Shown piece after piece: positions 9,013 through 64,000 of a stretch of DNA of 64,000 nt (within the stretch, counting starts at the first letter, position 1; each line of letters starts with the position of its first letter). The translations under genes were made by a program, and so were the position numbers. A model generated the notes under the pieces. The model searched no databases and was not told the origin of the DNA. It saw only the letters and a program-made list of their open reading frames with translations. Source of the DNA: Rhypophila decipiens (taxonomy: Eukaryota > Ascomycota > Sordariomycetes > Sordariales > Naviculisporaceae); contig MU858047.1 of NCBI GenBank assembly GCA_033297075.1, positions 496,001 through 560,000 of the forward strand. Reading direction: 5' to 3'.

Positions 9013-10293
9013 ATGTCTTCTGATCCTGAGTCCAAGTCATTCCTCCAAAATCGCGACGACGAGATAGACGACAGTCTAAGCGACGACGACGACGATGAAG
9101 GGCTTATTGTGCATGAGCATGAGCTCTTGAGCGGAGGCGACAAAAAGAGGACAGCCCCTGAGGCCTTCGAACGACGAAGTTTCACAAAAGGCTGGATTTA
9201 CCTCACGCTCAACAACATATTTCTTGGCGGGAATATTCTGCTGTTCGCTTGGATGTTCTGGGGAGTCCTCACTGTGCGAAGTTATTGTCCTGATGTTCCC
9301 TCATGTATGTTTTACACAAGTTCCCTACCATATTGTGAGAATGTCTGCAATTGTCCATCTGCTAAAATGCGAGCATGGATTAAACAGCTATACTTAGCCC
9401 AGCAATCGAGTACGAAGACAGAGTCATTGACCATCGGCGGAAACAACCAATTCCTCAAAGGATCAAAGATGACTGGTTAACCTGGGACAGGGGCTTTACA
9501 GGTGAGTTGACACATAGCCTCCATCAAGTAGAGATGCAATGTGCACGACGACTGATAACGACCAATAAATCCAGGAGAAATCTTTCGCGCAACAGAAGAA
9601 GACTTGAAATCCTCTGGTGTGTATTTCGATGATTCCTTGAAGCTAGAGAATGGGGGGTATCTGTCCGGTCTGGGTGTTATGCACGAGTTACACTGTCTGG
9701 TATGTATTATTCACAACTTCAATGTGACCACTATCAGACAAATAAGATTTGCTAATACTGTCGACTGAGCAGGCGTGGATTCAGCAAATGTACGCTGGCA
9801 AGAAAACAACACCATTTGAGCGAACTGTGCCCGAGATAGGCCATTTAGGTGAGCAGCCCCCGCAACATTCCCACTTTCTCACATGATTTGCACTCATGAC
9901 ATGTGAACTGAAAATTAATATCGATGTCTGCCAGATCACTGCATATACGTCCTCTTCCGGAGCATAACCTGCCGACCAGACCTCACGATAGGCGGCCTGT
10001 ACTGGGAGCCGTCTGACGAGGAAATGGGCCATGGGCATGAACACGAGGAAAGAAAAATGAAACGGGATTACGCTCACATGTCCATGAGTGGCGGCAGTCA
10101 TAGAGATGACAGGCACAAGGTACAGAAGTGTGTCAAGTGGGAAGGTGTTGAGGCCTGGCTGAAGATCAGACTCATCAACCAGACAAGTGATGATGTTTTT
10201 GAGGGCGTCATGAGCCCGGATGGCGTGGTGAGGCATGTACCCGCCTCTGAGCTGGGGGATAAGAAACGTGCTGTATCGACCGTGTTTGTTTGA
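9013..10293 (+). CDS. UstYa-like oxidase (DUF3328), copy 1
   Basis: Five exons: 9013-9304, 9403-9501, 9575-9699, 9773-9848, 9935-10293; 316 residues. The N-terminus is acidic and cytosolic, followed by one TM helix (about residues 60-85, GWIYLTLNNIFLGGNILLFA). The family's two metal-binding motifs are intact: HELHC at the end of exon 3 and DHC in DHCIYVLFRSITCRPDLT at the start of exon 5. Introns fall directly after HxxHCL and just before DHC, a typical family layout. The C-terminus is His/Met-rich (GHGHEHEE). UstYa-family proteins catalyse cyclisation, hydroxylation or chlorination of fungal RiPPs and of the NRPS product cyclochlorotine. The start at 9013 is preferred over ATG 8956 because it opens the usual acidic leader. 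It shares its promoter with the HDO gene. Confidence 0.85.
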
Positions 10294-20144: not shown

Positions 20145-23100
20145 ATGGCTGCATACCGGGAATCAACGTCAGGGAACCATGTGGACCACGGCGTCTCTGC
20201 AACATCGTGGTTCCAATTGCTGGAATGGAATGGTTTGGCACCCGAAAATGCAAATAGTTGTATACACGATGCACTTCATGAGACTGCGATTCGACAGCCA
20301 GATGCCGTAGCACTGGAGGCTTCCGACGGTTCCTTCACCTATGCCGAGTTGGACGAGATTCTTCGCCGTCTATCATATTGGTTAATCGCTCAGGGTATCC
20401 AACCAGGGGATCATGTCCCCATCTGCTACGAAAAGTCGAGATGGGCCATCGTTTGTATGCTTGCTTTGCTCTACGCCGGAGCCGCCTTTGTACCCGTGGA
20501 CCCTGCTTCTCCGACTCAGCGTCTTCAGGCAATATGCAAGGTCACTGGAGCTCGCTTTGTGATCACGTCGCCTGCCACATCTCATGTCTTTGACGGATCT
20601 TTCGAAGAACAGGCGATCCTCGAGGTCAGCGCCGAGAGTATCGTCCAGTTGGCGCCCGTAGATGCCACATTTCAAGAGCCGGAAGTCAGACCGGACGATG
20701 TTGCATTCATCATGTTTACGTCCGGATCAACAGGTCAGCCCAACGGTGTTCCCATTCAACACCATGCTATGGTTACTGCAGCCATGGCGTACGGGGCCGA
20801 ACTGGGATTTGGTCCCGACACAGTGACAATTCAGTTCTCGGCTTTTGTTTGGCTACCATGTTCTGTAGAGATTATATCAACAATGATTTGGGGGTACGTA
20901 GCCCAAGTCCTTGCTACAGCAAATGCGAAAATATGCTGACATCTGTTGTTAGAGGCAAATGCTGTGTTCCCTCCGAGGATGAGCGTCTGAATGACACATC
21001 CAGCTTTATCCAACGCCATCAGGTCAACACCGCTGCTCTCACGCCTTCTTTCCTCTCGGTACTTGAACCATCAGATGTGCCATCACTCGCAACACTCATT
21101 ATTGGAGGTGAAAAGATCAGCCAGGAATTGATCACGAAATGGGCCTCGTTGGTCAAGATGAACTTGGTATACGGATCCACCGAGACCAACCTCGTTATCG
21201 TTCGGACTGTCCAGCCGGATGAATCCGGAAGCAATATTACCCTCAAGCCAGTAGGCTGCCGTGTTTGGCTCGTCGAGCCAGGCGACCCAGACCGACTGGT
21301 GGATGTTGGTGAGGTCGGCGAGATGGCGATCGAATCTTGGACTCTTGCACGTGGATACCTCGACAACCCTGAAAAGGAAGCAGCCAAATTCGGCCACACA
21401 CCAAAGTGGCTGACCGATCTCAGGCCAAACGCCAGACCAAGGCTTTGCCTTACGGGCGATATTGCTAAATTCCACGGTGACGGTACTGTTCAGGTCCTTG
21501 GCAGGCGAGACGACGTTGTTAAGTTGCGCGGCCAGAAGGTGGATCCGAACGAGGTCGAAAATGCTATTCGCCAGAATATTCCACCACATAGTCATGTTTC
21601 CGTTCTTGTCAGCACCGACGGACAGCACTTGCTTGCTTTTGTGGCACTGAACGGAGAAGGGCCGGGAAAGCGGGACAAGGAGGTGTATCTGAGAACAGAT
21701 GCGGAGGCTGCGAGAATTGTTCAGGCCATCAAGAGCGACTTGGCTGCACGACTACCTGCATTTCTGGTTCCGTCCCAGATCCTCACCTTGTATCAATTTC
21801 CGCTCACAGCGTCTGGCAAGCTCGACCGGCGAGAGTTGCTCAAGATGAGCGTAATCTCTCACGAGGCTGTTAGCAAAAGGGCGCCTTGTACCCCACACGA
21901 GATTATCATGCGCCAGCTTTGGTCGTCCGTATTAAAAGTCCCAGAGAGTCAGATCGGCCTGGACGACGGCTTCTTTCGACTTGGCGGGCACTCGCTTGCA
22001 GCCATACGTCTCGTCTCGGAGGCCCGGCAAAAGAACATGTCATTGAGCGTCAAGCTGGTTTTCGAGAATCCTACGCTGGATGCTCTCTCGAGATGTGCTG
22101 TTCGAGGTGCTGATATGGCTCAAAAGCTGACGATCGATCCGTTCCAGCTGGTTGGTGGCTTGTTGGACGCCGGGACGGCGGAGGAGCTGCTTGACGAGGT
22201 TTGCTTGCTGCACCCGGAGATCGAGAAGAAAAAGATCGAGGACATGTACCCATCTTCTGCTCTGCAATCCGGCATGATGGCATTGACCATGAGACAACCG
22301 GGCGCATATATCGCCCGATGCATTTTGCCCCTGGCTGCTTCGATCGATGTGACTAAGCTGGAGGAAGCATGGCGGGCGGCCAACAAACAATGTCCCATTC
22401 TCAGGACAAGAATTGTGGAATCATCGATTGGGACTCTTCAGGTGGTTCTGGAACAAGATTTCCATTGGACGACGGTGCATTCTGAACTGGAGGCATTTTT
22501 GCAGAAGGACCAAGAGCAATGTACCGATATGGGCTTGGGCTCTGGTCTTTCTCGGCTCACCGTGGTTGATGCTGGTATCCAAGGCCGGCATCTTGTCTGG
22601 ACAGCACATCACGCTATCGTCGATGCGTGGAGCATCAAGCTGACTCTTGGATTGGTCTCAAGTCTCCACAACAGCACCGTTGCTGAGCATGTTTTCCCTG
22701 ACTTCAACTTGTATATCCAACACCTGCTACAGATTGACCACAAAGCCGAGGCTCAGTACTGGGAGTCGTACTTGGACGAGAGCCCGCCGCTTGCATTTCC
22801 CGTTTTACCTTCGTCAACCTATACCCCCAACCCTACTTCATCAATGATCAGGACGTTTCAGGTTCCTGTGAACGCTGTGGGCAGCGGTGTGACCTCAGCG
22901 ACCAGGATTCGAGCAGCGTGGGCCCTCGTGTTGGCGCGGTACTCGAACCAGAACGACCTTGTTTTTGGCACGACTTTGAGTGGTCGTACTATGGACGTGC
23001 CCCAGATTGAGCATATCGTGGGGCCGACCATAGCAACAGTCCCCATACGTGTTCGGATGGACGAAGAAATGACGATTTCTTCCTTCCTCGACAGAGTCCA

Positions 23101-26100
23101 GAAAGAGGCTGCCGGCATGACAGAATTCGAGCAAACCGGGCTCCAAAATATCCGCCGCATCAGTCCGCAGCTACGGATTGCCTGCAATTTCCAGACTCAT
23201 CTTATCATTCAATCTGGAGAGGAGCTGCAACTGGAGCCAGCCAACATGCTGGGAAGTGAAGCAAGAGTTGATGACTGGGGAGCATCGGCATCATATGCTA
23301 TTAATGTCGAGTGCCGACTTGTAGGATCGACCATGACTTGCGACGTTGCGTTCGATGAGAAAGTCACCTCGAAAGAGCAAATGAATCGTCTTTTGATCCA
23401 CTTTAGTCGGTTTATTGACCATCTGTGTTTACAAGATGACAAAGTTTCGATAAACGACCTGGATATTATTACCCAGAACGAGATGGAGCAGATCTTCCGG
23501 TGGAATGGTCGTCTCCCAGATGCGGTTGAGTCTTGTGCGCACGAGGTGATCAGAGACGTGAGCCTTACCCAGCCGGACCATGCAGCAATATGCTCTTGGG
23601 ATGGGAGTCTGACCTACAAGGAGCTGGATGAATTCAGTAACGCCATATCAAAACGGCTTATTTCTGACGGTGTCATCTCCCCTGGCGACATCGTTCCCAT
23701 ATTCATGGAAAAGTCTCTTTGGGCAGTGGTTTCCATGCTTGCTGTCTGGAAAGCTGGCTGCGGATGGACGCTTTTGGACGCAGAACACCCTGAGGCGTGG
23801 GTCCAGGGTATTTTGGAGGATGCTCAAGCCAAGTTGGTTGTGTGCGATGCAGCATGTGCGACAATGATACCCGAATCTGTGGAAAGACTTGTTGTGAATA
23901 AACGAATGGTGGAAAAGTTCCCTCATGTATCCGAAGACGAATCGTGGAGAAGGCCGGATCCAGCAAGTCTTTCGTTTGTTCTCTACACCTCTGGCAGCAC
24001 TGGCAGACCAAAGGCCATCCCGCACACCCATAAAGCTTTCTTGTCAGGGGCATTGGCAAGAATACCCACCATACAACGAGACAGAAGCTCCAGAGTTCTC
24101 CAGTTCTCATCATACGCCTTTGATACGGCTATCGAAGATACCATCACTACCTTCCTTGTTGGTGGCACAGCATATATTCCATCCGACCACGAAAGGAACA
24201 ACAATCTCGTCGCCTACATGGACAAGATGGCCATTACCCACGCTGACTTTACACCGTCTTTCGCCACCATCTTGTCAGCTGAAGAACTTCCCAGCCTCAA
24301 AGTGCTCACTCTCAGCGGCGAGGTAGTCACGCACTCTCACAGAGATATCTGGGCGCACCGAGTGACGCTCATAAACTCTTACGGGCCAAGTGAGGTTGCT
24401 ATTATAAGCCACACTGGTCAGATTCGCCCAGATTCGCACCCTTCCAATGTCGGGATGAACTTGGGCTGTCTTGGGTGGATCGTCCGCTCAGACGACATCA
24501 ACAGGCTCAAGGAAATTGGAGGTGTCGGAGAGCTATTGCTGGAGGGCCCAATTCTCTCGAGCGGGTACATCAATAACCAGGAAAAGACTCAAGAATCATT
24601 CATTTCCAATCCGGACTGGCTTCCCGCGGACAAATTTGGAAAGCGCCGGTTTTACCGCACTGGAGATCTAGCGCGTTATGAAGAAGATGGGAGCATTGTG
24701 ATTGTGGGGAGGAACGACTCTCGTATGCGCAAGCTCCGCGGTCAGCGCATCGAGGTTAGCCAGGTAGAGATGGCAGTCAAGGAGAGCATCACCTGCGCGG
24801 TGGATGTTCTGGCTGACGTGGTGACGTTGTTCGACCGGCCTGGTTCTGAGTCGTTGGTGGTATTCGTCGCTTTGGGTGGAAGATATACCGAGGACGAAGA
24901 GCAGCTATCTTGTTGGTGCGCTGCGATTTATGAGCACCTTGGGAATAGTCTGCCTTCGTACATGGTTCCCGTTGCCATGGTTCCCTTGAGAGTGTTCCCG
25001 TTGACGGTACATGGGAAGATGGATCGGAAGAGCATGCTGAAATTGGTCGAGGGCCCCTCTGGCGAAGTGGTGATTCGCTACATCACACCAACATTGCACG
25101 CGTCGTCGGAAAGCCGGGCAATCACCTCGCCGGCCGAGATGTTCTTGCGGGATCTTTGGGCAGACACCTTGAAGGGGATCTCTGCTGACAGCTTGAGAAG
25201 CGACAGCAATTTCATCCATCTGGGAGGAGATTCCATTCTAGCCATGAAGATGGTCGCCCTTGGGAGTAGTAAGGGCGACAGGGAGGGTGTTTCTTGTGCT
25301 CTCACTGTGCGATGCATTCTGGGAAATCCGGTTCTGTCAGACATGGCACTGTCTATTGGAGTAGAGGGGACTAGGGCTCCTGAAAAGGTGGTTGGGTCAT
25401 TTCAGCTGCTTAATCTTGAGACGGAGGATCTGGCATCAACGATCAGCAGCTTGGCCGAGCTGTGTGGTTGCGATCCGAATTATGTAGAGGACACGTACCC
25501 CTCCACGCCTTTACAGCAAGGCTTGATGGCTCTTTCTATCAAGCGCAGCGGCACTTATGTGTCTCAACAGGTATTCGAGCTGCCAGATTCGGTCAATGTT
25601 GATCAATTCAAGGACGCATGGAACGCTGTCCATGCGGCTACGCCTATCCTCCGGACTCGCATCATCCAAGACAAGACCACAACAGTTCAGGTGGTGGTCA
25701 AAGAGTCAATCGACTGGGCCGAGGATGCGGACCTTGCCGACTACTTGCAACGAGACCGTTCGCTCCCAATGGGTCTTGGAAGTCGCCTTGCACGTTTTGC
25801 GATCGCCCACAAGTACGGTGTGCCGCATTTTGTTTGGACGATGCATCATGCCATTTATGACGGCTGGTCCGTATCTCTGGTTCTGGACTCGGTGACCAAG
25901 GCCTACGGTGGGGATTTCACTCCACCAGAAGCCCAATACAAGCAGTTCATCCAACACCTTCAGATCATGGAGAATGACGGCCATGCTGGGTTCTGGAATC
26001 AGTACCTAGATGGAGTGACGGAGACGGCCATTTTTCCTCGCCTGCCATCACCAGCTTCCTCGGTACAAGCAAATGCTTCGTTGGATTACACCATATTATT

Positions 26101-29100
26101 GCCTGACCAGAGACCAAAAGAGGCTACTTTGACGGCCCTCATATATGCGGCTTGGGGCATACTCGTCAGCCAGTACGTCGAATCTGCTGATGTTGTTTTT
26201 GGCACCACGCGAACAGGGCGAAGCGTCCCCCTGAAAAGCATCGATGAGATGGTTGGGCCAACATTTACGACAGTGCCCTTCCGAGTGACTGTTGACAGGT
26301 CGAGACCCATCTCCGAGTTGCTTGCGAGAGTTCAGACCAATATTACCGACATGATCTCGTATGAGCATCTTGGTCTACACAGCATCAAGGCCGTGGGCCA
26401 AGATGCCGCTGTGGCCTGCAACTTCCAGACATTGATGGTTGTCCAGCCCAAGCCAGAAGCCGTCGATGAATCATCCGATGGATCGGCCCCGGGTCTGTTT
26501 TCTCGCGCTTCTGTGTCGGGCGACATTTCAGACTTCAATCCATATGCCGTCATGCTCCAATTTCAGCTCTCACAGGACAGCATTGCTGTCAACTCCAGCT
26601 TTGACTCGAGGGTCATTGATGCCGCTCAGATGCAGCGTATCCTGTATCAGATGGAGCATCTCATTTATGAGCTATGCCAGTGTGAGCTCAACACTGCCAA
26701 GATTACAAAGCTCAATATGCTTTCTCCTCAAGATCACAATGAGATCATGGCATGGAACAACGGTGGCTTTGCGCCCGAGGCTGATCATTCTTTGATGCAC
26801 AAGGTCATTGAGGAGCAGGCGAGGCTCTACCCTGATGCGCCGGCGGTGTGTGTTTGGGATGGCAAGGAGCAACGGAACGTGTCTTACAAGGAGCTAGACG
26901 AGTATGCGACGAGGCTATCTTGGGAACTGGCGCGGTTTGGTGTCCAGGCTGAACAGATTGTACCCATCTGCAGCGAAAAGAGCTGGTTGCCGGTTGTTGC
27001 ACTTTTGGCTGTGTTAAAGGCTGGCGGCGCGTTCGTGCTTCTTGACCCGACCCATCCTAGGGATCGTCTGATGGGCATCGCCAAGCAGACCAAAGCTAGT
27101 TTGCTTCTGGCTAGCGAGGATGCTGCTCATCTGTTTGAGGGTGAGGACGGGTTGGAGGTCAAGGTATTTTCGGAGAGTTGGTTCAACAGTCTGCCAGATT
27201 GTTCTCAGGCGGAGACGACCGAGACTGTCGTCTCGTCGTCCAATCTGGCTTGCTTGGTGTTCACTTCAGGTTCGACTGGACGACCGAAGGGTATTCAATT
27301 GGAGCATTCTGCTGTGTGTACGAGTGTGCTGAGGGGTCATGGGCCGGCGCTGAACTTGACGAGGGAGAGTCGTGTGTTTCAGTTTGCTTCTTTTGCTTTT
27401 GACATGTGAGTCGTCCCAATTCTAAGATTTATGAGCTGGATTGCTAACGATCATGACAGGGCACTTTATGACATTGCCGGCACATTGATGATGGGCGGTT
27501 GTGTTTGCATGCCGACCGATACGACTCGCTTGAACGGGTTGGCCGACTCTATCAAGGCTTTGCAGGCAAACTGGGCTTTCTTCACACCGTCAACTGTCAA
27601 ATTACTCAGCCCCGATCAGATCCCATGTCTGGAGACGTTGGTTGTGGGCGGCGAGGCAGTCAAGCAAGAGACGGTTGACACTTGGGTCACCAGGGTCAAA
27701 TTATTCCAGTGCTCTGGTCCTGCAGAGACGACAACATGCGTGACCTGCGCAATGGCTCCCACGACAAACAAGAACAGACTCGGTCAGGGTGCCGGAGTGC
27801 TCTGCTGGGTCGCCTCGCAGGATGATCCCGATGTCTTGGCGCCGATTGGCACAGTGGGCGAATTGATCATCGAGGGAGCCACCGTCGCGCGTGGATATAT
27901 CGCGGATGAGCACAACGCCCTGGGACTCTTCATTCCCCAGCCCAAATGGGCTCGACCGACTCTGCCCGATGAGCCACCAGAGTCTCGGAGGTTCTACCGT
28001 TGTGGTGACCTTGTCCAGTATGACTCTGAGGGCAACCTCAACTTTATTGGCAGAAAGGATACACAGGTCAAGGTCCGAGGACAAAGAATTGAGCTTGCTG
28101 AGGTCGAGGAGTGCTTGAAGAAGGCGACGCGGAGCGATGTGGCAGCCGAGGTCATCTTGTCCCCGAATGAAACCCGGAGACCGATTCTGGTTGCTTTTGT
28201 GGGTGCCGAAGCCGCTGGCGAAAGTGATGCCTCCTCGAGGTCCGTCTGCTCCATCATCCATGAGCCGACCGATGATTTCCATTCCGAGATAGCTCGCTTG
28301 CAGGTCAAAGCAACTGCGTCCCTTCCGCCGTACATGGTTCCGTCCTTCTTTATTCCCGTGTCCCGCATACCGCTCAACAGTTCGGGCAAGGTCGACAGAA
28401 AGATGCTGAAGGCTCTGAGCGCGCAGCTCTCGGTTCACCATCTTGCAAAGTTCTCCTCGTCCGAATCCAAGTCGATATTTCCGGTAGAGACTCCAGTCGA
28501 GAAATTGGTGCAGATGCTTTGGGCCCAGGTGCTCAAAATCGACGCTGCTGCAATTGGGTCCAACTCCAACTTTCTTCACCTGGGCGGCGATTCCATTTCG
28601 GCAATGCAGCTTGTTTCGCTGGCCGCCGAGCAAAATGCCCAGTTGACTGTCGCGGATATCTTTCAGAATCCGCAGCTTGATAGGTTGGCTGCATGTGTCA
28701 CTTTTGTTGAGGAATCAAGCCATAAAGAACCGCTGGCTCAGCCGTTCGGTCTTCTTCCGGGCGGTACTGATGAAGACGGTATACGGCGCGAGATTGCGAC
28801 CAGTCTTGAGCTCGATGAAGGGCTCATCGAGGATGCTTATCCAGCAACTGCTCTCCAGGAAGGCCTCATGTTCTCTTCAATCCAGAACAGCGGGGCATAT
28901 ATCGCACAAGAAGTTTATGCCCTCCCTGACGATGTCGATATTGAGAAGTTCAAGCTCTCATGCGAGACTGTTTATCAGGCACATGCTATTCTTCGGTCGC
29001 GCATTACAGAGACAGAGTTACTCGGATGTATCAATGTTGTTCTGGGCGGCCGCATACGGTGGGTTGACATTGATATGGACGTTGATGAATACCTGATGAA

Positions 29101-32100
29101 AGACCAAGGCAAACCCATCGGCTTTGGAGAAGTCCTCTCGAGATGGGCTATTGTCGGGTCTGAGACCAAAGTCTTTGTCTGGACAAGACATCACTCTGCG
29201 TATGATGGTTACTCGTTGCAACTTGCACTTGACGATATCGATCGTGCATACAGAGGACATGGAGGAGAAAGTATTCCCTCGTCGCCGAAAACAAGCTTCA
29301 GAGATTTCATTCAATACCTCACTGAGAGGGATGCAGCCGGGAGTGTCGAATACTGGCAAAGAATGATGGGCGATGCTTCTCCTTCTGCGGTCTGGACATG
29401 TACAGGCAAACGAACAGATGAGCCAGTCATCAGCAAAGCCGACCTGCAGTTTGCGCTCTCACCGCGTCCTGGCTCGTCCATCACTTTATCCACACGTATT
29501 CGGGCTGCCTGGGCTCTGCTCTTGCAGAAGTACTCGGGTTCAGACCATGTTGTCTTTGGAGAAACGCTGTCGGGGAGGAATGTTCCTGTTCCTGGTATCG
29601 ATCACTGCCCCGGACCTGCCTTTGCAACCGTTCCCATTCATATCAAGACTTTTTCGTCCAACACGGAAACAGAGACCTTTCTCCAAGAGATTCAACACCA
29701 GTTCATCCAGATGATTCCGCATCAGCATTATGGACTGCAGAAGATTATGCAAATCAGTCCCGAGATCCGCGCAGCTTGCGAGTACGAATCTCTCCTTGTC
29801 ATCCAGCCCGAGCAATTTGTACACGAGAATTCCGTCCTCCGGCCTCTGAGAGAGGGTGGCAACTCCAATTTCTACACCAATGCCCTTACTCTGACCTGCC
29901 AGCTTACACAAGCGGGACTCGACGTCTCGCTTCATTTTGACCAGTCATTGCTTGGCGAGAGGCAAGCTGGGAGGATATTGAAACAGTTTGAGCATATCCT
30001 CAAGCAGCTCGCTGGCAGCGATGCTGGACCGCCCCGTCGTCTTTCTGATATTGATTATGTCTCAGCTGCGGATCTGGCCGAGATGTGCGAGTGGAACAGC
30101 AGCCCTCCTTCGGTTGTCTACGACACGATTCATGATGTCTTTACGGCGACGGCCAAGGCCTCTCCAGATGCAGTCGCTATTGATGCTTGGGATGGCACTT
30201 ACACTTATGCTCAACTGGATGACATGACAAACCGGCTTGCACACCATCTCATAGACCTGGGCGTCGGAGGCGGCCAGCTCGTGCCGTTAATCTTTCCTAA
30301 ATCTTGCTTCTTTATTATTTCCATTCTCGCTGTGCTCAAAGCAGGCGGGGGCTTTGTTGGCATTGCTCATGAAGATCCCCGGCAACGCATCAAGGCGATC
30401 TTGGATGGCTGTCAGCCCAAGATCGTCCTCGCATCGCCTGATTGCGCACCTCTTGCCGCTTCTGCGGGCTCAAAGGTTCTGGTGGTGACAGAGGAGCTTC
30501 TGGCCTATTTGTCTAGCGAGTCTAAAAGCGCACTTTCCGAGACCGCCAGCCCATCGGGTACGAGTTGCGCTGTCTTTACCTCTGGCTCTACTGGAACGCC
30601 CAAGGGCATCATCCTTGACCATACGCTGGTCTGCAGCAATGCCAGGGTGCACGCCCCAGGTCTCTCGATATCTTCTTCCACGAGGGTGTTGCAATTCGCA
30701 AATCATTGCTGGGACGCCATCTTCATCGAAGTAATTTACCCACTCATGTACGGCGCCTGCATCTGTGTTCCGGACAACCAGACTCGCTTTGACGGCTTGG
30801 TTGAAGTCATCAACAGAAACCGAGCGAATTGGATGTTCCTCACACCGACTACGGCAAGTCTTTTGGAGCCGAAAGATGTCCCAACCCTGACCACACTTGT
30901 CATTGGTGGCGAGGCCGCGTCCGATGCTGTGCTGAAGACATGGCAAGGTATCCAGGGGAACCTCTACAACATTTATGGCCCGGCCGAGTGTGGTGTGTTC
31001 TGCGTGTTCAACAAGCAACACAAGCTATCCAAGAAGCCGTCTGAGGTTGGTTCGCGGATGACAGGTCGCCTCTGGCTGTGCGATCCAGAAGATCATGAGA
31101 AGTTGGTTCCCATTGGGTGTGTCGGAGAATTGCTCGTTGAAGGTTACCTGTCACAGGGATATCTTGGTCAACCCGAGATGACTACCGCGAGCTTCCTCAA
31201 TACCACAAGTTGGCTGGAAAGAATTGGCAGATTTGAGAATTACTCGTCTGTCTACCGAACCGGAGATTTCCTTCGGTACAGGGACGATGGGACGCTGGAG
31301 GTTATTGGACGGAAGGACTTCCAGTTCAAGGTAAACGGTCAGAGACTCGACTCTGCCGAGGTCGAAAAGCAAATTATTTCGCATCTTGGTCCTGCCTGTC
31401 GCCATGTGGTTGTTGACAGGATTTCCAATCCTCGCCAGCCATCTTCAAAGCCCCTTGCTGCTTTTATCGTCATGGCAGATGCATTTTTCGAAGCAGAAGG
31501 GCCACCGATGAATATTGGCATTGACGAGAATCTGCGCATTGCATTCACGCGTCTGCAGAATTCACTCTCGGGCGCGCTGCCACGGTTTATGGTCCCTTCG
31601 CTCTTCATACCCATGAACCGCCTGCCTGTCACGGGAACGGGAAAACTTGACAGAAAGACGCTCCGAAATCTTTGTTCTGGGATTTCAGATGTTGACTTTG
31701 ACTCGTACCGGCTTTTGGAGAAGGACAAGGAGCAGCCTGTTGGTCATCTCGAGGTCAGACTCCAAAGGTTGTGGTCCATCGTCCTCAACACATCGGTTGA
31801 AAGTATCGGAAGACAAGACAAGTTCTTCAATCTTGGTGGCGACTCTATCATGGCTATGAAGCTGGTTAATCTGGCGAAGCGTGAGGGGCTTTTGCTCACA
31901 GTGGCTGCTGTTTTTAGATGGCCGAGCCTGATGGAAATGGCTGCACAGATTGGATCATCTTCTGGTGTTGAGAGAGAAGAGTCGATCAGCTCATCTGGAT
32001 ACACGGCGTTCTCGTTGGTCAAAGATTATGGACACTTGTCTCCGAGTGTGATCGCTAACCAGCTATCATGCCCGACGTCTAACATTGTCGATATTTATAC

Positions 32101-33787
32101 CGCTACGAGCTTTCAGTCGCAAAGTGTGGCAGCTACTTTGCTCAAATCACGGGGCATGCTGGGATATTTCCCTTTCGAAGGAACGGGGGACCTCGACCTC
32201 GATCGCCTCAAGGACAGTTGTACAACGCTAGTTCATACTCACGACGCACTTCGCACAGTATTTGTCCAGAGCTGTGGAGAGATTATTCAGGTCGTCCTCA
32301 ACAAGGTCCATGTCAAATTTCAAGTTTTCGAAACAAGCCAGGGTGATTTGGACGATATAGCATCACGGGTGATTCAGCGGGACGGACGCAAGCCTCTGCA
32401 GCTCGGGGATACGCTTGTCGCGTTTTTCCTTGTCAAGTCCAAATTCTCGAAGCAGTTCAGGCTTATTATTCGGATGTGCCATGCCCAGTACGATGGTCTT
32501 TCTGTTGCCTGCCTGTGGAAGACATTGCAAAAGACATATCAAGGCGAGGATATCACGACAGAGGATGGAGAACCATACTCGAAATACATGGTTGAGTACC
32601 TCAGACAGAGCAACGATGTTCAGTCACGCGCTTACTGGACTGGCCTTCTCCGGGATGCCACCGTTACGGAGGTGGTCAGTCGGACGAGACCAAGATATCT
32701 CATCAAGAGCAACAACGTCATCACTGTGACGAGGAACACGGCCACAATTCCCAAGTTGCATGGCATAACCACCGCGACAGTGATGAAAACCGCCTGGGCA
32801 TATGTGCTAGCAGAACTCTCTGGCAAGACCGAGGCTGTATTCTTCAGCACGGTCTCTGGTCGAAAAGCAGACATGGTGGATGTTGTAGGCGCCTGTCTGA
32901 ATATCATTCCCGTTCGGGTGGTCAATCTCACGGGCGGCCAAAACGTACAGGCTCTTCTCCAGAGAGTACAAGACCAACACACCTCAAGCATGGAGCACGA
33001 GCTCGTGGGACTGGACGAGATTGTATCCCGGTGCACGTCGTGGCCGAGATGGGGATACGCGGGTGGCTCGCTGATTCAGCACGATGGGGACTGGGTTGAG
33101 GATGAAGATGTCAACTCTATTCAATTGGGTGATGGAATCGAGTTGACTGCGTTGGAGGGAAGCATGCACCCTGGTGTGGGATTCTGTGATTTGGCGATTC
33201 ACTCGAGGGCTATTGGCCGAGGTGGTGGTGGAATTTCTGTCACTGTTAGCGCGCTGGCGGAGGAAATTGGCCGGGACATGGTAGGGTACATTTCTGAGAG
33301 GGTCTGTTGGTTTGTTGAGAATCTTGCAGCAGCTGCAGAGGGTTGTTTGGATGAGGAGCAAAACAACATTACCAGCACTCAGCAGCAGCAGCTGCTGCAG
33401 CAGTTCCATATCCCGCTCGAGGAGAAGACCAGGAGCAGCAAGGAGGTTCACGGCGGCAGAGGTGAGAGGCGCTCATGTTCGCCCGACTCGGACTCAGATG
33501 TGGAACTGTCACCGCCCCTAACGCCGGATGGTCGACGACACGCGCAGCTATACAAGATGTTGGAGGAAAAGTGGAGCGAGGTTCTTGGTCTTGGTGGTGA
33601 AGCGGCGGCAGATTTGTCCAAGTCGTTCTTTGAACAGGGCGGGGATATGGTCAGGGTCTGTTGTCTTGCTGATATGCTCAGACGGGAAGGGTACGAGGTC
33701 GATATGGAAGATTTGTTGTTGTTGTCGGATACATCTTCTGGAGGGGGGCGGTTTCATGATCAGTTGGCGTTGCTTGTTTCTTTGTGA
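20145..33787 (+). CDS. Nonribosomal peptide synthetase, (A-T-C)x4 with terminal degenerate T
   Basis: Exons 20145-20893, 20953-27405, 27460-33787; 4509 residues. Builds a peptide of four units by thiotemplate chemistry. Order with approximate residues of core motifs: A1 (TSGSTG ~195), T1 GGHSL ~593, C1 HHAIVDA ~801, A2 TSGSTG ~1262, T2 GGDSI ~1672, C2 HHAIYDG ~1881, A3 ~2354, T3 GGDSI ~2776, C3 HHSAYDG ~2977, A4 ~3441, T4 GGDSI ~3861, C4 CHAQYDG ~4074, a Gln-rich linker, and T5 reading GGDM ~4461. All four A domains keep the GK(L/M/V)DR lysine. A1 is odd: the FDxx motif carrying Asp235 reads WLPCSVE, so the alpha-amine anchor is missing, and its A3 motif has PNG for PKG. T5 has Met for the phosphopantetheine Ser, so it cannot be primed. 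No epimerase, methyltransferase or TE domain is seen; C4 is the likely release/cyclisation domain. A domains begin directly, with no loading C. The layout recalls HC-toxin/apicidin-type tetrapeptide synthetases but without their E domain. Confidence 0.95.
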
Positions 33788-38924: not shown

Positions 38925-40043
38925 ATGACGGTGAATACACCATCTCACAATGAGGATATCGAACTGCCGCTCTTGGATGCCCGGCTCTTTCTCTCTGGGA
39001 CCCAGGATGAGCGCAAAGAATTCGCACAGGCTTTTACCAACTCCTTACTTGAGCATGGCTTTGCTCGCGTCATAAACCATGGCCTCGATGAGACCACGGT
39101 GGGTGAGCTCTTCGACTGGGTAAGATGGCACAAAACCCTCCTTCATACTCTATGTTTGTTCATATCAACTTACACTTTCCATAATTAGTCCCGAAAATTC
39201 TTCCAGCTCCCAGACAAAGTCAAGCAAAAAATAGAGCACAAGCCTGGCCCTAACCCTCAGCGCGGATGGAGTGCAGTTGGTTCCGAAAGCACGGCCAAGC
39301 TCTTCGGCCGACTCAACGGGAACCCAGACGGCCGGAAAATCTCCGAGACAGACGCCAAAGAGCACTTTGACCAAGGACCTCTCGACGACTTGGCCTTTCC
39401 CAACCGATGGCCCAGCGAAGATGCACTCCCCGGCTTTCGCCCTTTTCTGGAGCACTTTTACACCCGCTCTCACGAGATCAGCATGCACCTCCTGACTGCC
39501 CTGGAAGAAGGCTTGGACCTCCCCGCCGGAGCCTTCACAGATCGGTGCAAGTCAACCGCCGACGAGCTTCGTCTGAACCACTACCCCGAGCTGCAAATAC
39601 CCAGCGACAAGGCCCAGACGGGCGCAAATCGGGTATGGCTGCATACCGATCTGGGGATTATCACCTGTTTGTTCCAGGATAACATTGGCGGGCTGGAGAT
39701 GGAGGATCGTCGGTCCCAAGCGGCCGCAAAGCAAAGATTCCAGCCTATTCCGCCCGGAGCGAGGAGGGACGAGATGGTGGTCAACATCAGCGAGACCATG
39801 GAGCGGTGGACGAATGGGGTCTTGAAGGCGGGCAAGCACCTCGTCATGACGCCCAAGCGGGAGGATGTCACGACCGGGAATGTGACCATCCCCGAGCGCT
39901 TCTCGATCCCGTATTTTGTCAAGGCGAGTCGGGAGACTTCGGTCGGACCGCTGCCGTATTTTGTTAGTGACAATGCCCCGCCTGTGTACCCTGATATGAC
40001 GGCTTTGGAGTTTCATGCCCAGCGGGTTGCCAAGGCGTATTAA
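38925..40043 (+). CDS. 2OG-Fe(II) dioxygenase, isopenicillin-N-synthase family
   Basis: Exons 38925-39119 and 39189-40043 (intron GTAAGA…TTAG); 349 residues, the usual size for this family. DIOX_N: IELPLLDARLF…GFARVINHGLDE. Catalytic part: HTDLG (iron HxD) near residue 230, distal iron His in the segment WTNGVLKAGKHLV, and RFSIPYF (RxS, 2-oxoglutarate carboxylate). All ligands needed for catalysis are therefore present, unlike the copy at 4989. Fungal members hydroxylate, desaturate or ring-form secondary metabolites in the cytosol. Located between the regulator and UstYa2 with GTAAGC half-sites upstream, it is probably a tailoring enzyme of the NRPS cluster. A CCCTAACCCT block lies within the coding sequence (39248-39257). 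Confidence 0.88.
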
Positions 40044-40435: not shown

Positions 40436-41385
40436 TCACCACTTATTAACAACATGCTCCTCCATCCACCCATGCAATTTATCAAAATTCCGACACCGAT
40501 GTCTGGCATCAAAGTCACTCTTCTTCCCAATCGGCGCATCAGGCAAGATCTCGACCAACATGGGCGTGGTATCGCCATAGCACATGATTGTCTTTCGCAG
40601 CTCTTCAATACAATGGTCGACGTGCATCCTTTGTCCCACGGCCGTCGACTTGAGCGGCCGGCTCATGTTATGGCGGTCGTAGTAGTCCATGCCCCATGTG
40701 TACTGGCGAATGTAGTTGATGCAGTGCAGCTGGTGGAACATCATGACGCCCGCTGCGTAGCCGCCGTCTGGGAATTTCTTGAATTCCTTGTGGGGTCGGC
40801 CTTCGTTTAGGATTGGGATTTTATCTTCCGGGATGCGGATTTCGCCCACTGTGGTTAACGGGGGGATTAGCATTTGTGATTTTTGTTTGTCTCTGTTGGT
40901 GTTGTTGGGACTTGATTACTCTGCCACAACCTCGTCCATGTCTCCTCTAGCTCGGGCGTCGGTGGACCTCGAAACTCGGTCTTGTGGGCGAATTTGTTGT
41001 CAAAGTTGTAGTCATGATACTCCACGGCGTCGTTTAGTGGTGCTGTGTGCGAAAGTTAAGGTTAGAATAACATTTTTCTTGAGGAAAAAGTCCAAGAGGA
41101 GGAGAATGACTGACAGTACATGCTGAGCTTCTTGACGCATGTTGTCGTCCCGGGATGACTCTGCCCTATGAACAGCCCGGCGGAGAAGACGATGATGGTT
41201 GCAAAAAAGTATAATGAGTAACTGACAAGCTGGCTGCAGATGGTCGGTCTCTTGGCTGGTCTTGATGGACTGAGGCTCGCTTCGGAACCATCATTCTCAC
41301 TTGAAAACACCGGAGCGTATTTTCCCGTGTTGATACTACTGCTCCCCGACCGCTTAGGGTTGAAGAGATGTAGTATTTTTGACAT
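40436..41385 (-). CDS. UstYa-like oxidase (DUF3328), copy 2
   Basis: Exons (minus) 41115-41385, 40920-41042, 40436-40848; 268 residues. The first donor is GTCAGT (non-canonical third base), chosen because it restores LSMYSPLNDAVEY, the conserved YSP…VEY segment following the TM helix. The TM helix is at about residues 48-72 (VSYSLYFFATIIVFSAGLFIG). Both metal motifs are intact: HQLHC in MMFHQLHCINYIRQ and DHC in VDHCIEELRKTIMC. Expected to be a type II membrane protein with its catalytic part in the ER/Golgi or vesicle lumen, modifying the peptide by oxidation. It shares a promoter carrying two GTAAGC-type sites with the small secreted peptide at 41824. Confidence 0.85.
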
Positions 41386-41823: not shown

Positions 41824-42018
41824 ATGAAGCAATTCGCAACCGTCGTTCTCGGCGTCCTTCTCGCCCTCAAAGTCTGCCACGCAGCCCCAGTCGAGTGGGA
41901 GCCCCTCAAAGAAGCTCCCGCTGGCGTCGACCAGTCCAAGTTTGACGACCTCAGCTTCCCGTACCAGGATGATATCGAGGCGGCCGAGTCCCACGCTGCC
42001 GAGATTCTCGGACTCTAG
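41824..42018 (+). CDS. Small secreted peptide (candidate modified-peptide precursor)
   Basis: Single exon, 64 residues. Clear signal peptide MKQFATVVLGVLLALKVCHA with a probable cut before APVEW. The mature part is about 44 residues, acidic, without cysteines, without KR/RR sites and without internal repeats; it contains SFPYQDD with the only Tyr. It lies between two UstYa-like genes and shares a promoter element with one of them. Precursors of UstYa-modified RiPPs are small secreted proteins, but they normally carry Kex2 sites and repeated cores, which are absent here. It could be a single-core precursor, a cluster-associated secreted helper or an unrelated effector-like protein. The ATG is the first after the promoter and has an A-rich leader. 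Confidence 0.6.
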   Translation: MKQFATVVLGVLLALKVCHAAPVEWEPLKEAPAGVDQSKFDDLSFPYQDDIEAAESHAAEILGL

Positions 42019-43155: not shown

Positions 43156-44166
43156 ATGGACATCTTGAACGAAAAGGATCGTCACCATCATCGACGACGA
43201 CGACATCTGTCAGAGCGGGTTCCCTTATTCCTCATATCCAACATCACATTCATCATAATAAATGTGATCCTCTTGTTGGGTGGGAAGCAATGGGTCCATC
43301 TCAAGGATATACACTGTCCTAGAGTTCAGCATTGTGAGTGACTTCTTTGCCTCCATACCCTGTCCAGTTTCTAACGTGACCTCATCTGCCAGTCGGAAAC
43401 GCATTCAAGCACAGCTACACGACCTACGATGACTCCAAGATTCATAACCCTTTGGCTGGGTTCAACCATACGGATGAGCTCAAAGATGCGTGGGGGAGTC
43501 TTTTGACTCGTGAGTTTTGTTTTACTAATGAAATTGCCATCACTCAAGAACGATAGCTAACTCGTGATGGCAACAAAACACAGCTGGCGTCTTTCGGGTC
43601 TCCAAAGAAGAAGCCATTACTCTAGGCAAACTCAGAGAACAAAGCGTCCGCTTTGGGAACGGCGATGTGGCGCTCAGTTTGAACGTCTATCAGGAGTTGT
43701 ATTGTCTTGTGAGTACACAACCCTACCGCCCTACCCAAGCAACAAATCATACCTAGTTGCATTGTCTGCGTACGTGGTGCTGATATTGCACCAACAACAG
43801 AAATTCTTCAAACTAGACCTCCTCAATCCCTCCAGTCCAAGCCATATTTCCTCGCCCGCTCTGGAGGCCGAGAGACTGGACAAATGCATCAACATCATCA
43901 TGCAACAGCGCCTCTGTCGAGCTGATGTCTCGGTTGAGTCGTGGTACTGGAAGAAGCAGGACTATACCACGCCCTGGCCGAGGCCAAAATCTCAACGGCT
44001 GTGCATGGCTTGGGAACAGTTGGAGGATTGGCTAACTCGGCCTGGAAGACGGGTCTTGAAAGATGGGAATGGAGGCATGTTGGATGAGCCGGTGTATGGG
44101 CCGTGTGGGTTTAAGAAACCTGTGCGGACGGATCTGTTCTTCGATGGGGGGGTTATGTTTGGTTAG
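43156..44166 (+). CDS. UstYa-like protein (DUF3328), copy 3, motif-degenerate
   Basis: Exons 43156-43333, 43393-43509, 43584-43708, 43801-44166; 261 residues. The gene has the family structure: basic cytosolic tail (HHHRRRRH), one TM (PLFLISNITFIIINVILLLGG), and an intron exactly after the first motif. However both metal motifs are altered: HxxHC reads QELYC (both His lost) and the DHC motif reads DKC in DKCINIIMQQRLC. The cysteines remain. All splice junctions are clean and the frame is open, so it does not look like a decayed gene. It is more likely a non-catalytic partner, as UstYa-type proteins often work in pairs, or it has taken another role. GTAAGCTTAC lies about 390 bp upstream. Confidence 0.8.
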
Positions 44167-45782: not shown

Positions 45783-46892
45783 TCACGGGTTCCCTTTCTT
45801 CCCTTTCTCGACACCCATGGCATAGACCTTCTCCGACTCAGCCCGAATGACACTCAACCGATCGCCCACCTCGCCCGTCTTGACCAGCGGAGACTGCCAT
45901 TTCTCCGCAAACTCAACCACCTTATTAATATCCCGACACTTCCTCGGCATAGCCAAATGAGCACCGTAAAGACTTACGTCCAGCGGCTCGAGGTTACTAT
46001 CTGCCGAGCAGAGCAAGGCTTGACGGAGGAGGTCGAAGCAGTGGTGCATATGAACTGGGTAGACACCATGTTGTTCTTTGCCCTTGCTGCCGTGGTCGTG
46101 TTGACGTTTTGATCCATGCTCTTTTTCGTCTTGTTTGTCCTTGTGGCTGTTTTGGTATATGAGTTCTCGGTCGATGAAGTAGTCTATGCTCCAGAGGCAG
46201 TGGAGGTGGTGGAATACGGCGATGGTGGAGGTATCGGGTGCTAATTCCGGATGACGGACATGGCCCTCACCGACTGAGGTAGTTTGGTGGTGTGTCAATA
46301 TTTCCCTTCTGGTGTTGAACACTGGATGATGATTCGGGAAAGCGAAAAGCGGGAAACTTACCAGGAAACAAAGTCGCCCACGCATCTTGCTTCTGCTCGC
46401 TCGTCAGGCCAGAAAACGTCGTGTTCCATATCATGTGCGATGGTGTATCCCCAGGCGGTGCTATTTGACTCTCCCATGTTAATGGCTTCATCTCTTGGCC
46501 GAACAGGAAGAATGTACTCGAAAAAACGTACGCAGCAACCCATCCCACGCATCATGTTCCTCATCGCCATTGCTTTCCGAACGAGCTTGCCACCTCATCC
46601 CGACATAAAACCCAACGATACTCGTAGCAGCCGATACTCCCAAAAGGGCCAGAATCACCGAGATACCATGCCACCTGCCGCCGCCGCTCCTCGACCTTGA
46701 CCTTGCTTGCCGCCCTGTTGGGTCAAATTTGTCGATAAAGTCACTCTCATCATCCTGGTCCTCCCGGTCGTGGTCCTTGTAACTCCCGTCTTCGTTCAAC
46801 AGAGTGCTGCTGCTGCCGCTGCTGCCGGTGGACGGCACTTCTTCAAAAACAATGGACCCTCGTCTGCCTGTGATCCATGATAGAAGGTTCAT
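45783..46892 (-). CDS. UstYa-like oxidase (DUF3328), copy 4
   Basis: Exons (minus) 46532-46892, 46362-46493, 45783-46273; 327 residues. The first intron would be only 38 nt (46494-46531, GTACGT…CAAG), shorter than the other introns here. It is the only junction found that keeps the frame, so a sequencing indel or a different exon boundary is possible. Long acidic/Ser-rich cytosolic N-terminus, TM at about residues 72-98 (GISVILALLGVSAATSIVGFYVG). Metal motifs: HHLHC in FHHLHCLWSIDYF and HC in HMHHCFDLLRQALLC, separated by an unusual 35-residue Lys/His/Asp-rich insert. Unlike copies 1 and 3 there is no intron between the motifs. GTAAGCTTAC is 320 bp upstream. Confidence 0.8.
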
Positions 46893-61985: not shown

Positions 61986-62638
61986 CTAGAGGGTCTTGGC
62001 TCCATCACTCTCGGCCATAGCATCGGGAGCTCTCTTCTCGGGACTGGCGCGATACCTCCATGTCAAGCCATTCCAGAGCAGTTCGGCCTCGTCTTCTGTT
62101 TCGACCGCGTCAACCTCGGCCATAACAGCGGGAGCTCTCTTGTCAACGTGAACGACATTATCCCGGCGCTCGGGACTGGCACGATATCTCCATGTCAAGC
62201 CATTCCAGAGAAGCTCGGCCTCGTCTTCCGTTTCGACGGCCGAAGTGTCCCGCTTGTTTTCTATCGAATAAAAGGCGGAGTGTTAGTGAGTCGTAAGATA
62301 CATGTAGTCGGTAAGCTCCTGCAAGAGAAAATGGGAACAGAACAAATAGCGTGAAAGGCAAGATGAGAATTTCCACATAGACCAGGTAGCACAAAGACAG
62401 GCAACAGTAATTACTAGCCTTGGTGTGTATCGGGATGTGCAACAGCTCTTGCGGAAAGGGGAAGGGGCCTCCAAGCAACATTGGTGTACCCTTCCATGCC
62501 CTCGAAGCAGATCCACCCAGGCCTTGAACATAATTTCATGGGTGGTTGCTTACCGGGCTTGGCTGGATTTCCAGCTGGGGCGGCCAAGACGACTGCTGAG
62601 AGGAAGCTCAGGGATAGGATGGAGAGTTGCCACTTCAT
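61986..62638 (-). CDS. RiPP precursor peptide, Kex2-processed repeats (UstA/dikaritin-type)
   Basis: Exons (minus) 62554-62638 and 61986-62260 joined by a 293-nt intron (GTAAGC…GATAG; a middle exon cannot be excluded); 119 residues. Signal peptide MKWQLSILSLSFLSAVVLA, a short pro-region, then two copies of a ~24-residue unit ending LLWNGLTWRYRASPE, each closed by a dibasic site (ERR, EKR). Further KR sites lie before copy 1 (ENKR) and before copy 2 (VDKR). Within 24 aligned codons the copies differ at six positions, all synonymous, so the peptide sequence is under selection. This is the signature of ustiloxin/asperipin/phomopsin-type precursors, cut by Kex2 and cyclised by UstYa enzymes. A UstYa-like gene lies divergently at 63300. 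Trp and Tyr in the core are candidate cross-link residues. Only two repeats is low for the class. Confidence 0.82.
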
Positions 62639-63299
62639 TTTTCTTGCGGTAAACGGGAGGTGCTTCTTTAACTGGTTGTATTTGCGTTTTTGTGGGGTGC
62701 TTGTCGACAACGTTTGACTCCTTCTGATGTGACTAGGAGACTAAATACAAAGAGTTCAAAACAAACAGGACTCTGACTTCAATTTTATAGGACAGCGCCT
62801 ACTATGTTGCTTCGCCAAGATGATGCTTGGGGTATCCTATCTTCGGTGTTACCAGTAGAGAGCGGGGCAAGGTTCCTTACCCGGGCCGGATAACGGGGTT
62901 CATTCGGCGGTTCCGGTGATGAAAACTGAGACCGCCCCGCTCCGGGCCGCCGCTTTCCTATCGCACAGCTGTCCCGCCATAAACGTTGCGGGTAATCGTG
63001 CATAGCCTATCCACGGCAAGAGTCGGCAACCCATCAGAATCCCGGACACACAATGGCATTCCCTATCCGGGCCGGATAACTCCCGGGAACCAGGTAGGCA
63101 CCTGCGCCGGTACTTGCATAGCCTATCTCCATTTTACATGGCGTGGACCACAATTCAGATGGCCCATTGTTTAACCCCGAGACACTCAAATGCCCACCTT
63201 GACAGCAGAACATCCTCATGTGGGCCTACCATTATCTCTTCGTCCTATTTTTCCGGTTCCTTTCATCCCGTTCTTACCAAGTCCGTGTATCACTGAAAG
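62639..63299. promoter_or_regulatory. Divergent promoter of the RiPP precursor and UstYa5 with paired motifs
   Basis: Two exact direct repeats: CCGGGCCGGATAAC at 62881-62894 and 63067-63080, and GCATAGCCTATC at 63000-63011 and 63116-63127, alternating along the spacer. GC-rich sequence with CCGG steps is suited to Zn2Cys6-type factors. The GTAAGCTTAC element is absent, which argues for separate control from the NRPS cluster. Confidence 0.6.
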
Positions 63300-64000
63300 A
63301 TGATGGCCAAAGTCTTCAAGTTTCCACGTTGGGGAAAGACTGCCCGCTACCAGAAGGTTGAGGATGACGACGAGGAATCCAGAGGCAGGAGCGGAATACT
63401 ACCAGACTCTGAGAGCGACAGCCCCATAATTTCAGAAGAGACAATAAACGCCCATCGGTCCTCATTCCCAGCCGGCTCAAGACAACGAACAACCTACACT
63501 ACTGGTTTCACTATATCACTTATTATTACCAACCTTGTTACCTTAGCCCTTTGGCTATCGTCTCTTCACCGAATCGACCGATGGCTCCGAGATACTACCA
63601 ACTTTGACGATAAGCGAGCGTTTCTGGTAGGCCCAGCCCAAGTACCCGTCAGCTACGAGACTCGCAGATTCTCGCATATCCCGCTGGAGCGAGGTCCCGG
63701 AGGAGCCCATGCGGCCGACGAGTTTTGGCACAAAGTGGTCTCGGTTGGTTTGACACGCTTGACTGCAGAGCAGGCTGCCCTCGGCGGCTTGGGCGATGGC
63801 AAGACGTCAAGGGAGTGGAACACGACTGATTCATACGTCGGCGTGATGGGGACCTTCCACCAGCTACACTGTCTCGCTCGGTCTCGATACGCCATACTGT
63901 TTCCCGGAAGAATGAAGGAATTTGACGGAGATAAGACTGCACAAATCCATTTAGGTATGTCATATCATCAGCCCGGTCATTTTAATTTTAGCGATGTCTA
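63300..64000 (+). CDS. UstYa-like oxidase (DUF3328), copy 5, cut by window end
   Basis: Exon 1 is 63300-63954 (start MMAKV), followed by a donor GTATGT; the rest lies beyond the window. Visible: an acidic N-terminus (VEDDDEESRGRS), TM at about residues 72-90 (GFTISLIITNLVTLALWL), the segment FWHKVVSVGLTRLTAEQA, and the first metal motif HQLHC in TFHQLHCLARSRY. The exon ends with IHL just before the place where the second DHC motif is expected. It is transcribed away from the RiPP precursor, the usual pairing of a UstYa enzyme with its substrate gene; it is therefore the probable cyclising oxidase for that peptide. Confidence 0.85.
   Translation, partial: MMAKVFKFPRWGKTARYQKVEDDDEESRGRSGILPDSESDSPIISEETINAHRSSFPAGSRQRTTYTTGFTISLIITNLVTLALWLSSLHRIDRWLRDTTNFDDKRAFLVGPAQVPVSYETRRFSHIPLERGPGGAHAADEFWHKVVSVGLTRLTAEQAALGGLGDGKTSREWNTTDSYVGVMGTFHQLHCLARSRYAILFPGRMKEFDGDKTAQIHLGMSYHQPGHFNFSDV

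Follow-up and report, generated by a model that had tools for sequence, protein, structure and literature searches.

Studied members of the UstYa/DUF3328 family are copper enzymes that oxidize or cross-link peptides. To our knowledge few UstY products have a known structure, mostly with Tyr or Phe as the main building blocks. The ustiloxin core is YAIG in many copies, whereas the locus described here carries two copies of another sequence. Like our locus, the ustiloxin cluster has a Kex2-repeat precursor with DUF3328 genes, but it has two of these and a tyrosinase, as against five in our cluster and no tyrosinase on our contig; the phomopsin cluster shares with our locus a repeat precursor and five DUF3328 genes, but it needs a tyrosinase and has a Tyr core, whereas our contig is without a tyrosinase and our core region contains a pair of Trp and a single Tyr (both clusters as described in the available text of PMC7329392). 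The asperipin-2a cluster has a Kex2-repeat precursor, a UstY cyclase and, in the text available from PMC12048977, no peptidase gene, which resembles the pieces scanned here, but it has one DUF3328 gene rather than five (PMC7329392) and a different core. The UstY family, with a dicopper site, makes the Tyr-O to Phe-Cβ ether of asperipin-2a (PMC12186524). An earlier note on this DNA had likened the layout of the precursor to that in these three systems; the likeness holds for a Kex2-repeat precursor accompanied by DUF3328 genes and, with no tyrosinase, methyltransferase or peptidase matched in the scanned cluster pieces, breaks down for the gene content of the ustiloxin and phomopsin clusters.

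In the portion of the survey available to us (PMC7329392), 1758 of 7878 Kex2-processed repeat proteins had DUF3328 genes nearby, mostly at the next position, and some of these contained Trp, so the present cluster is not categorically new. Type P-3 of that survey, as here, has Trp in repeats beside DUF3328 genes, but its Trp is accompanied by Pro, a comparison with the present core made by description only. Three DUF3328 genes (CctO, CctP2 and CctR) occur in the cyclic-peptide cluster for cyclochlorotine, where CctR is copper-dependent (PMC12435403, text available in part). The cyclochlorotine backbone is nonribosomal, and this system resembles a separate left-hand cluster of our window more than the precursor cluster. 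A literature search, with most subscription journals outside its scope, returned no paper recognizable as describing this cluster or core, and the strings WNGLTW and WRYRASPE were absent from the same literature.

The window, the whole stretch of 64,000 nucleotides that was analyzed, runs from base 496001 to base 560000 of a contig of 844,360 bp, the full assembly being 45.7 Mb, and positions above 64000 continue its scale into the right flank. At ~62.0-74.3 kb (about 12.3 kb) we found a precursor gene, five UstYa/DUF3328 genes (UstY1-5) and a Zn2Cys6 regulator (Table 1), between an F-box-like gene on the left (59.9-61.0 kb, with a score just below the Pfam cut-offs) and an ankyrin-repeat gene starting at ~75.0 kb on the right. 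Very probably, judging from sequence, this locus is a biosynthetic cluster for a ribosomal peptide, in which the two-repeat precursor, divergent from UstY1, would be cut by Kex2, modified by UstY proteins and probably cross-linked. It most likely represents a UstY-type fungal RiPP with an unrecognized core region (two Trp, one Tyr) and a five-UstY set, and the predicted product is likely to be a new modified, probably cyclic, peptide. The earlier note had proposed a RiPP locus from the window, to be refuted if, among other things, no other RiPP gene followed on the right and there was no expression. Past the right end of the window lie four additional UstYa-family genes and the regulator, which together with a shared palindrome and signs of linkage in two relatives support the proposal. 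The same note had suggested extending the contig to the right for further enzymes; the extension supplied these UstYa-family genes and, in the scanned cluster pieces, no tyrosinase, methyltransferase or peptidase.

Table 1. Features of the predicted cluster, in window coordinates continued into the right flank.
Feature	Position	Strand	Details
Precursor exon 2	61986..62260	-	dibasic sites, both repeat copies, stop codon
Repeat copy 2	62037..62108	-	protein-identical to copy 1 (AVETEDEAELLWNGLTWRYRASPE), then KR
Repeat copy 1	62169..62240	-	AVETEDEAELLWNGLTWRYRASPE, then RR
Precursor intron	62261..62553	-	293 nt, GT-AG; starts GTAAGC, contains CTAAC, ends TAG
Precursor exon 1	62554..62638	-	hydrophobic N-terminus (predicted signal peptide); ATG at 62638; hydropathy peak; N-terminus same in P0001 and P0002
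Palindrome ATAGCCTAT	63002..63010		precursor/UstY1 divergent promoter; candidate regulator site
Second palindrome ATAGCCTAT	63118..63126		precursor/UstY1 divergent promoter
UstY1 exon 1	63300..63954	+	HQLHC; PF11807
UstY1 exon 2	64050-64321	+	HLAHC; past window end
UstY2	64880-65719 (L003:3380-4219)	+	PF11807; HAMHC/HIPPC
Zn2Cys6 regulator	~66217-68509	-	PF00172 (Zn_clus), E 1.8e-4, score 22 bits (cut-off 21); between UstY2 and UstY3
UstY3	70147-70884	+	PF11807; HQLHC/HWPHC
UstY4	72315-71432	-	PF11807; HQLHC/HADHC
UstY5	~73010-74280	+	PF11807; HRLHC/HDDHC; tentative model

The precursor gene encodes a 119-residue product, MKWQLSILSLSFLSAVVLAAPAGNPAKPENKRDTSAVETEDEAELLWNGLTWRYRASPERRDNVVHVDKRAPAVMAEVDAVETEDEAELLWNGLTWRYRASPEKRAPDAMAESDGAKTL, with dibasic sites at residues 31-32, 60-61, 69-70 and 104-105. 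As the earlier note had described, a unit bounded by KR and RR sites occurs twice; the two 24-residue copies are identical in protein and both end LLWNGLTWRYRASPE. Our recount also agrees with its six nucleotide differences over 24 codons, all of which are synonymous and fall at third positions. When six random changes were simulated under three transition weights, all were synonymous in 6, 7 and 10 of 60,000 trials. Selection is therefore likely to act on the repeat protein sequence; recent gene conversion would also make the copies alike. The signal peptide is predicted from hydropathy only, the N-terminus being hydrophobic and the same in two database proteins from other Rhypophila records (P0001 and P0002). 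Both of these, which are possibly predicted models, read across the exon junction proposed earlier (PAKLENKRD and PAKPENKRD) and have two copies each, which supports the two-exon model. A six-frame scan for repeats with dibasic sites over the window and right flank (99.5 kb) listed the precursor ORF only, and a search of the strain's own genome for a second precursor gene returned its own two exons plus two weak matches (E 1.05 and 9.15).

P0001 and P0002, at 93% and 91% identity, were the only proteins recovered at E up to 1 when 459 candidates were scored against the precursor. The window strain's own precursor had no row in this search though its UstY2 was in the database, so the gene may be unannotated in that strain's record. 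In both relatives the second copy differs between its two Trp (NGGLT and NDLT versus NGLT), reading WNGGLTW with an extra Gly in Rhypophila sp. PSN 637 and WNDLTW with Asp for Gly in the Rhypophila record V8F06, which we counted against the RiPP reading. These changes would shift the mass of a second-copy product by +57.02 and +58.01, respectively. Variable columns numbered 2 of 37 in the core blocks versus 11 of 56 in the rest of the mature region (p = 0.069), a difference that hints at a more conserved core but does not establish it. In Rhypophila sp. PSN 637, the precursor and the orthologues of UstY1 and UstY2 are each listed on a contig of 81,774 bp, and in the Rhypophila record V8F06 the precursor and UstY2 are both listed on a contig of 29,278 bp. 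The database gives no gene order, and these shared contig sizes are good but indirect evidence that the precursor and UstY genes are linked in two relatives too. No UstY1 orthologue of V8F06 was among the 13 proteins of the UstY1 search, which included seven homologues at 40-50% identity from Durotheca, Xylaria and Stachybotrys. The corresponding search with UstY2 covered 920 candidates and, at E up to 1e-10, found three proteins, all from Rhypophila, and UstY2 is 100% identical to QBC37DRAFT_409536 of Rhypophila decipiens.

A repeat protein of this kind could also release a linear Kex2 product, a pheromone or signal, that is not a UstY substrate. Alpha-pheromone cores of Sordariales are of the WC...CW type, unlike anything in this precursor, which has no Cys; this speaks against assigning the gene as such a pheromone precursor. 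The WC...CW pattern itself is too loose for a genome search (15 raw matches versus 3 in the control). In favor of a linear product, 6120 of the 7878 surveyed Kex2-processed repeat proteins have no DUF3328 neighbor (PMC7329392) and alpha-pheromone precursors likewise combine a signal peptide with repeats and dibasic sites (PMC6339444), as far as the available parts of both sources go. However, five UstY genes and the shared palindrome adjoin the repeat protein gene, and in the available survey text mating-factor genes hardly ever have a DUF3328 gene as neighbor (PMC7329392). We thus give the linear product a very slim chance.

The palindrome ATAGSCTAT is found at four places in the 99.5 kb text: 63002 and 63118 between the precursor and UstY1, 64733 before UstY2, and 72741 at the point where UstY4 and UstY5 diverge. 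UstY3 has a partial copy ahead of it (69890). Genome-wide there are 133 places in 45.7 Mb; 4 of the 133 lie within 9.7 kb here and all of these are upstream of cluster genes, for which a rough scan probability, uncorrected for how the motif was chosen, is 5e-4. The reversed motif, used as a control, has 166 places versus 133, so ATAGSCTAT is not enriched in the genome as a whole and is only clustered here. The longer form GCATAGSCTATSC matches the genome exactly at three places, including two at the cluster, and CATAGSCTATG has twelve places, again with two at the cluster. We spotted the word CATAGCCTA while reading upstream regions and tested it afterwards, a point counted against the RiPP reading. 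Motif choice was controlled with 300 random sets of four segments of matched lengths from outside these promoters, not restricted to intergenic DNA, taking the best 9-mer confined to each set. None of the 300 sets matched the five copies of CATAGCCTA over four segments; one reached five copies over two segments. No copy of ATAGSCTAT was present at four other UstY loci that we fetched. These data suggest that the precursor and UstY genes belong to one regulon. Separately, CCGGGCCGGATAA occurs twice in the precursor/UstY1 promoter (62881-62893 and 63067-63079), is absent from the rest of the 99.5 kb text, and is a second candidate regulator site.

A separate cluster occupies 20594-46403 of the window. 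It contains NRPS modules in two long open frames (20594-33784), a 2OG-Fe(II) oxygenase (39189-40040) and three UstYa-family genes (40439-40915, 43561-44163 and 45786-46403), and is possibly a cyclochlorotine-like tailoring set.

With NRPS modules and three UstYa-family genes on the same contig, the right-hand UstY array might tailor a nonribosomal peptide of the left cluster, as DUF3328 proteins do in cyclochlorotine with its three such genes (PMC12435403, available in part), and the repeat protein would be a bystander. However, the two UstY groups are ~16 kb apart, and genes for an ankyrin-repeat protein, an ABC transporter and an F-box-like protein lie between them; ATAGSCTAT does not occur in the left portion of the 99.5 kb text; and the precursor has an upstream region in common with UstY1 and the same listed contig sizes as the UstY1 and UstY2 orthologues in relatives. 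We consider this arrangement very unlikely compared with a ribosomal substrate for the right-hand array.

The part of UstY1 inside the window matches PF11807 (UstYa) at E 6.6e-9, in line with the HQLHC-bearing divergent neighbor of the earlier note, and its second exon with HLAHC lies just past the window. Genome-wide there are 67 PF11807 matches, counted per exon. UstY1-5 are mutually divergent (18-34% pairwise identity), each has a single N-terminal hydrophobic stretch, and the UstY5 model is tentative because it is one of 100 open splice combinations. An AlphaFold2 model of UstY1 (P0004, eight sequences) had a mean pLDDT of 44 and, with low confidence, put the pair of HxxHC motifs on two helices; a PDB sequence search with P0004 matched zero chains at E up to 1. 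Both HxxHC motifs are intact in four of the five genes. The exception is UstY2, in which a motif His is missing: the second motif is HIPPC in the window strain versus HIPHC in both Rhypophila relatives. In CctR, Ala substitutions at the motif His and Cys give inactive enzyme (available text of PMC12435403), and by analogy UstY2 may be inactive or altered in the window strain, unless the change is a sequencing error. This raises the alternative that the cluster is of the RiPP kind and is decaying in this strain, one UstY having lost a metal-binding residue. The precursor copies differ by synonymous changes only, the other four UstY genes retain both motifs, and UstY2 is otherwise a full open frame whose HIPPC could be an error of sequencing, so we think decay improbable; it would also be compatible with our preferred reading for the relatives. 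The UstY2 strain difference offers a natural test of the role of one UstY among five.

Under the 2015 proposal a dikaritin cluster includes a tyrosinase, a methyltransferase and either a transporter or a peptidase, some of which are missing from later clusters, and DUF3328 is cited as the class-defining enzyme (PMC12048977, available in part). Here a precursor with a predicted signal peptide and repeated cores between Kex2 sites lies near DUF3328 proteins with two HxxHC motifs (five PF11807 genes, four with both). The tyrosinase, methyltransferase and peptidase of the 2015 proposal had no match in the scanned pieces, and the tyrosinase none on the contig; we therefore file the locus under the DUF3328-based definition only. 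The Pfam scan covered the UstY pieces and three regulator pieces, and in these pieces there was no match to a tyrosinase, methyltransferase or peptidase, which we counted against the RiPP reading. None of 60 tyrosinase matches in the genome is on the window's contig (C3), which leaves the UstY proteins themselves as the candidates for cross-linking. The nearest methyltransferase-type match seen is a dimerization domain at 13.1-14.0 kb, 48 kb away, and an ABC transporter lies to the left of the precursor at a distance of 8-12 kb. Another contig of the genome carries a kexin-type P-domain gene.

The gene set is consistent with a pathway in which the signal peptide would direct the precursor into the secretory pathway, where UstY proteins, each with one N-terminal hydrophobic stretch, would work from the lumen. 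An acidic segment, AVETEDEAE, may be a recognition region, and the two LLWNGLTWRY segments would each contain the core and be oxidized there. Calculated neutral masses are 1860.9635 for LLWNGLTWRYRASPE, 1250.6309 for WNGLTWRYR and 1094.5297 for WNGLTWRY, less 2.0157 for every two-hydrogen cross-link. UstY enzymes would attack positions on Trp, Trp and Tyr, and Kex2 followed by exopeptidases encoded elsewhere would release the product. Trp may take part in the bond; modification at precursor residues Tyr54 and Tyr98 would be just as plausible. Tentatively, and with considerable doubt, we propose that a tyrosinase-free UstY array forges a Trp-centered macrocycle (Trp-Trp or Trp-Tyr via the indole) on WNGLTWRY. 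Such a macrocycle is unreported for the UstY copper family in the literature examined, part of which was available as excerpts. In the available survey text, repeats near DUF3328 genes are enriched in Tyr (65.6% versus 38.2%) and not in Trp (20.5% versus 24.5%; PMC7329392); we counted this against the RiPP reading, as we did the repeat number of only two. If the macrocycle proposal is true, the second-copy variants of the relatives would form a natural series of ring variants. A compact cluster with such variants would be a tractable system for learning which products dicopper UstY enzymes form from a Trp-rich core.

The four other UstY loci (C306, C251, C53 and C282; 10 kb each) were picked for several or strong matches rather than at random, and two of them (C53 and C306) contain a Kex2-repeat ORF. 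The recurrence of UstY genes with a repeat precursor in this fungus supports the RiPP reading and lowers its singularity. On C53, a Trp-containing Kex2-repeat ORF (L043:7811-8131, minus strand) has four TDNSAAGVVTWADVSKR-like units, with two UstYa matches on the same 10 kb. On C306, five KRYNGDDEGADKK-like units (L041:1420-1719, minus strand) lie near several UstYa matches, with a signal-like start upstream in another frame. In the window itself, a 64-residue ORF at 41824-42018 (plus strand), between the left UstYa genes, has a hydrophobic N-terminus, the string DDLSFPYQDD and no Pfam match, and is a possible single-core precursor. A further UstYa-family match at 9583-10161 has five in-frame stops and reflects either introns or a decayed copy.
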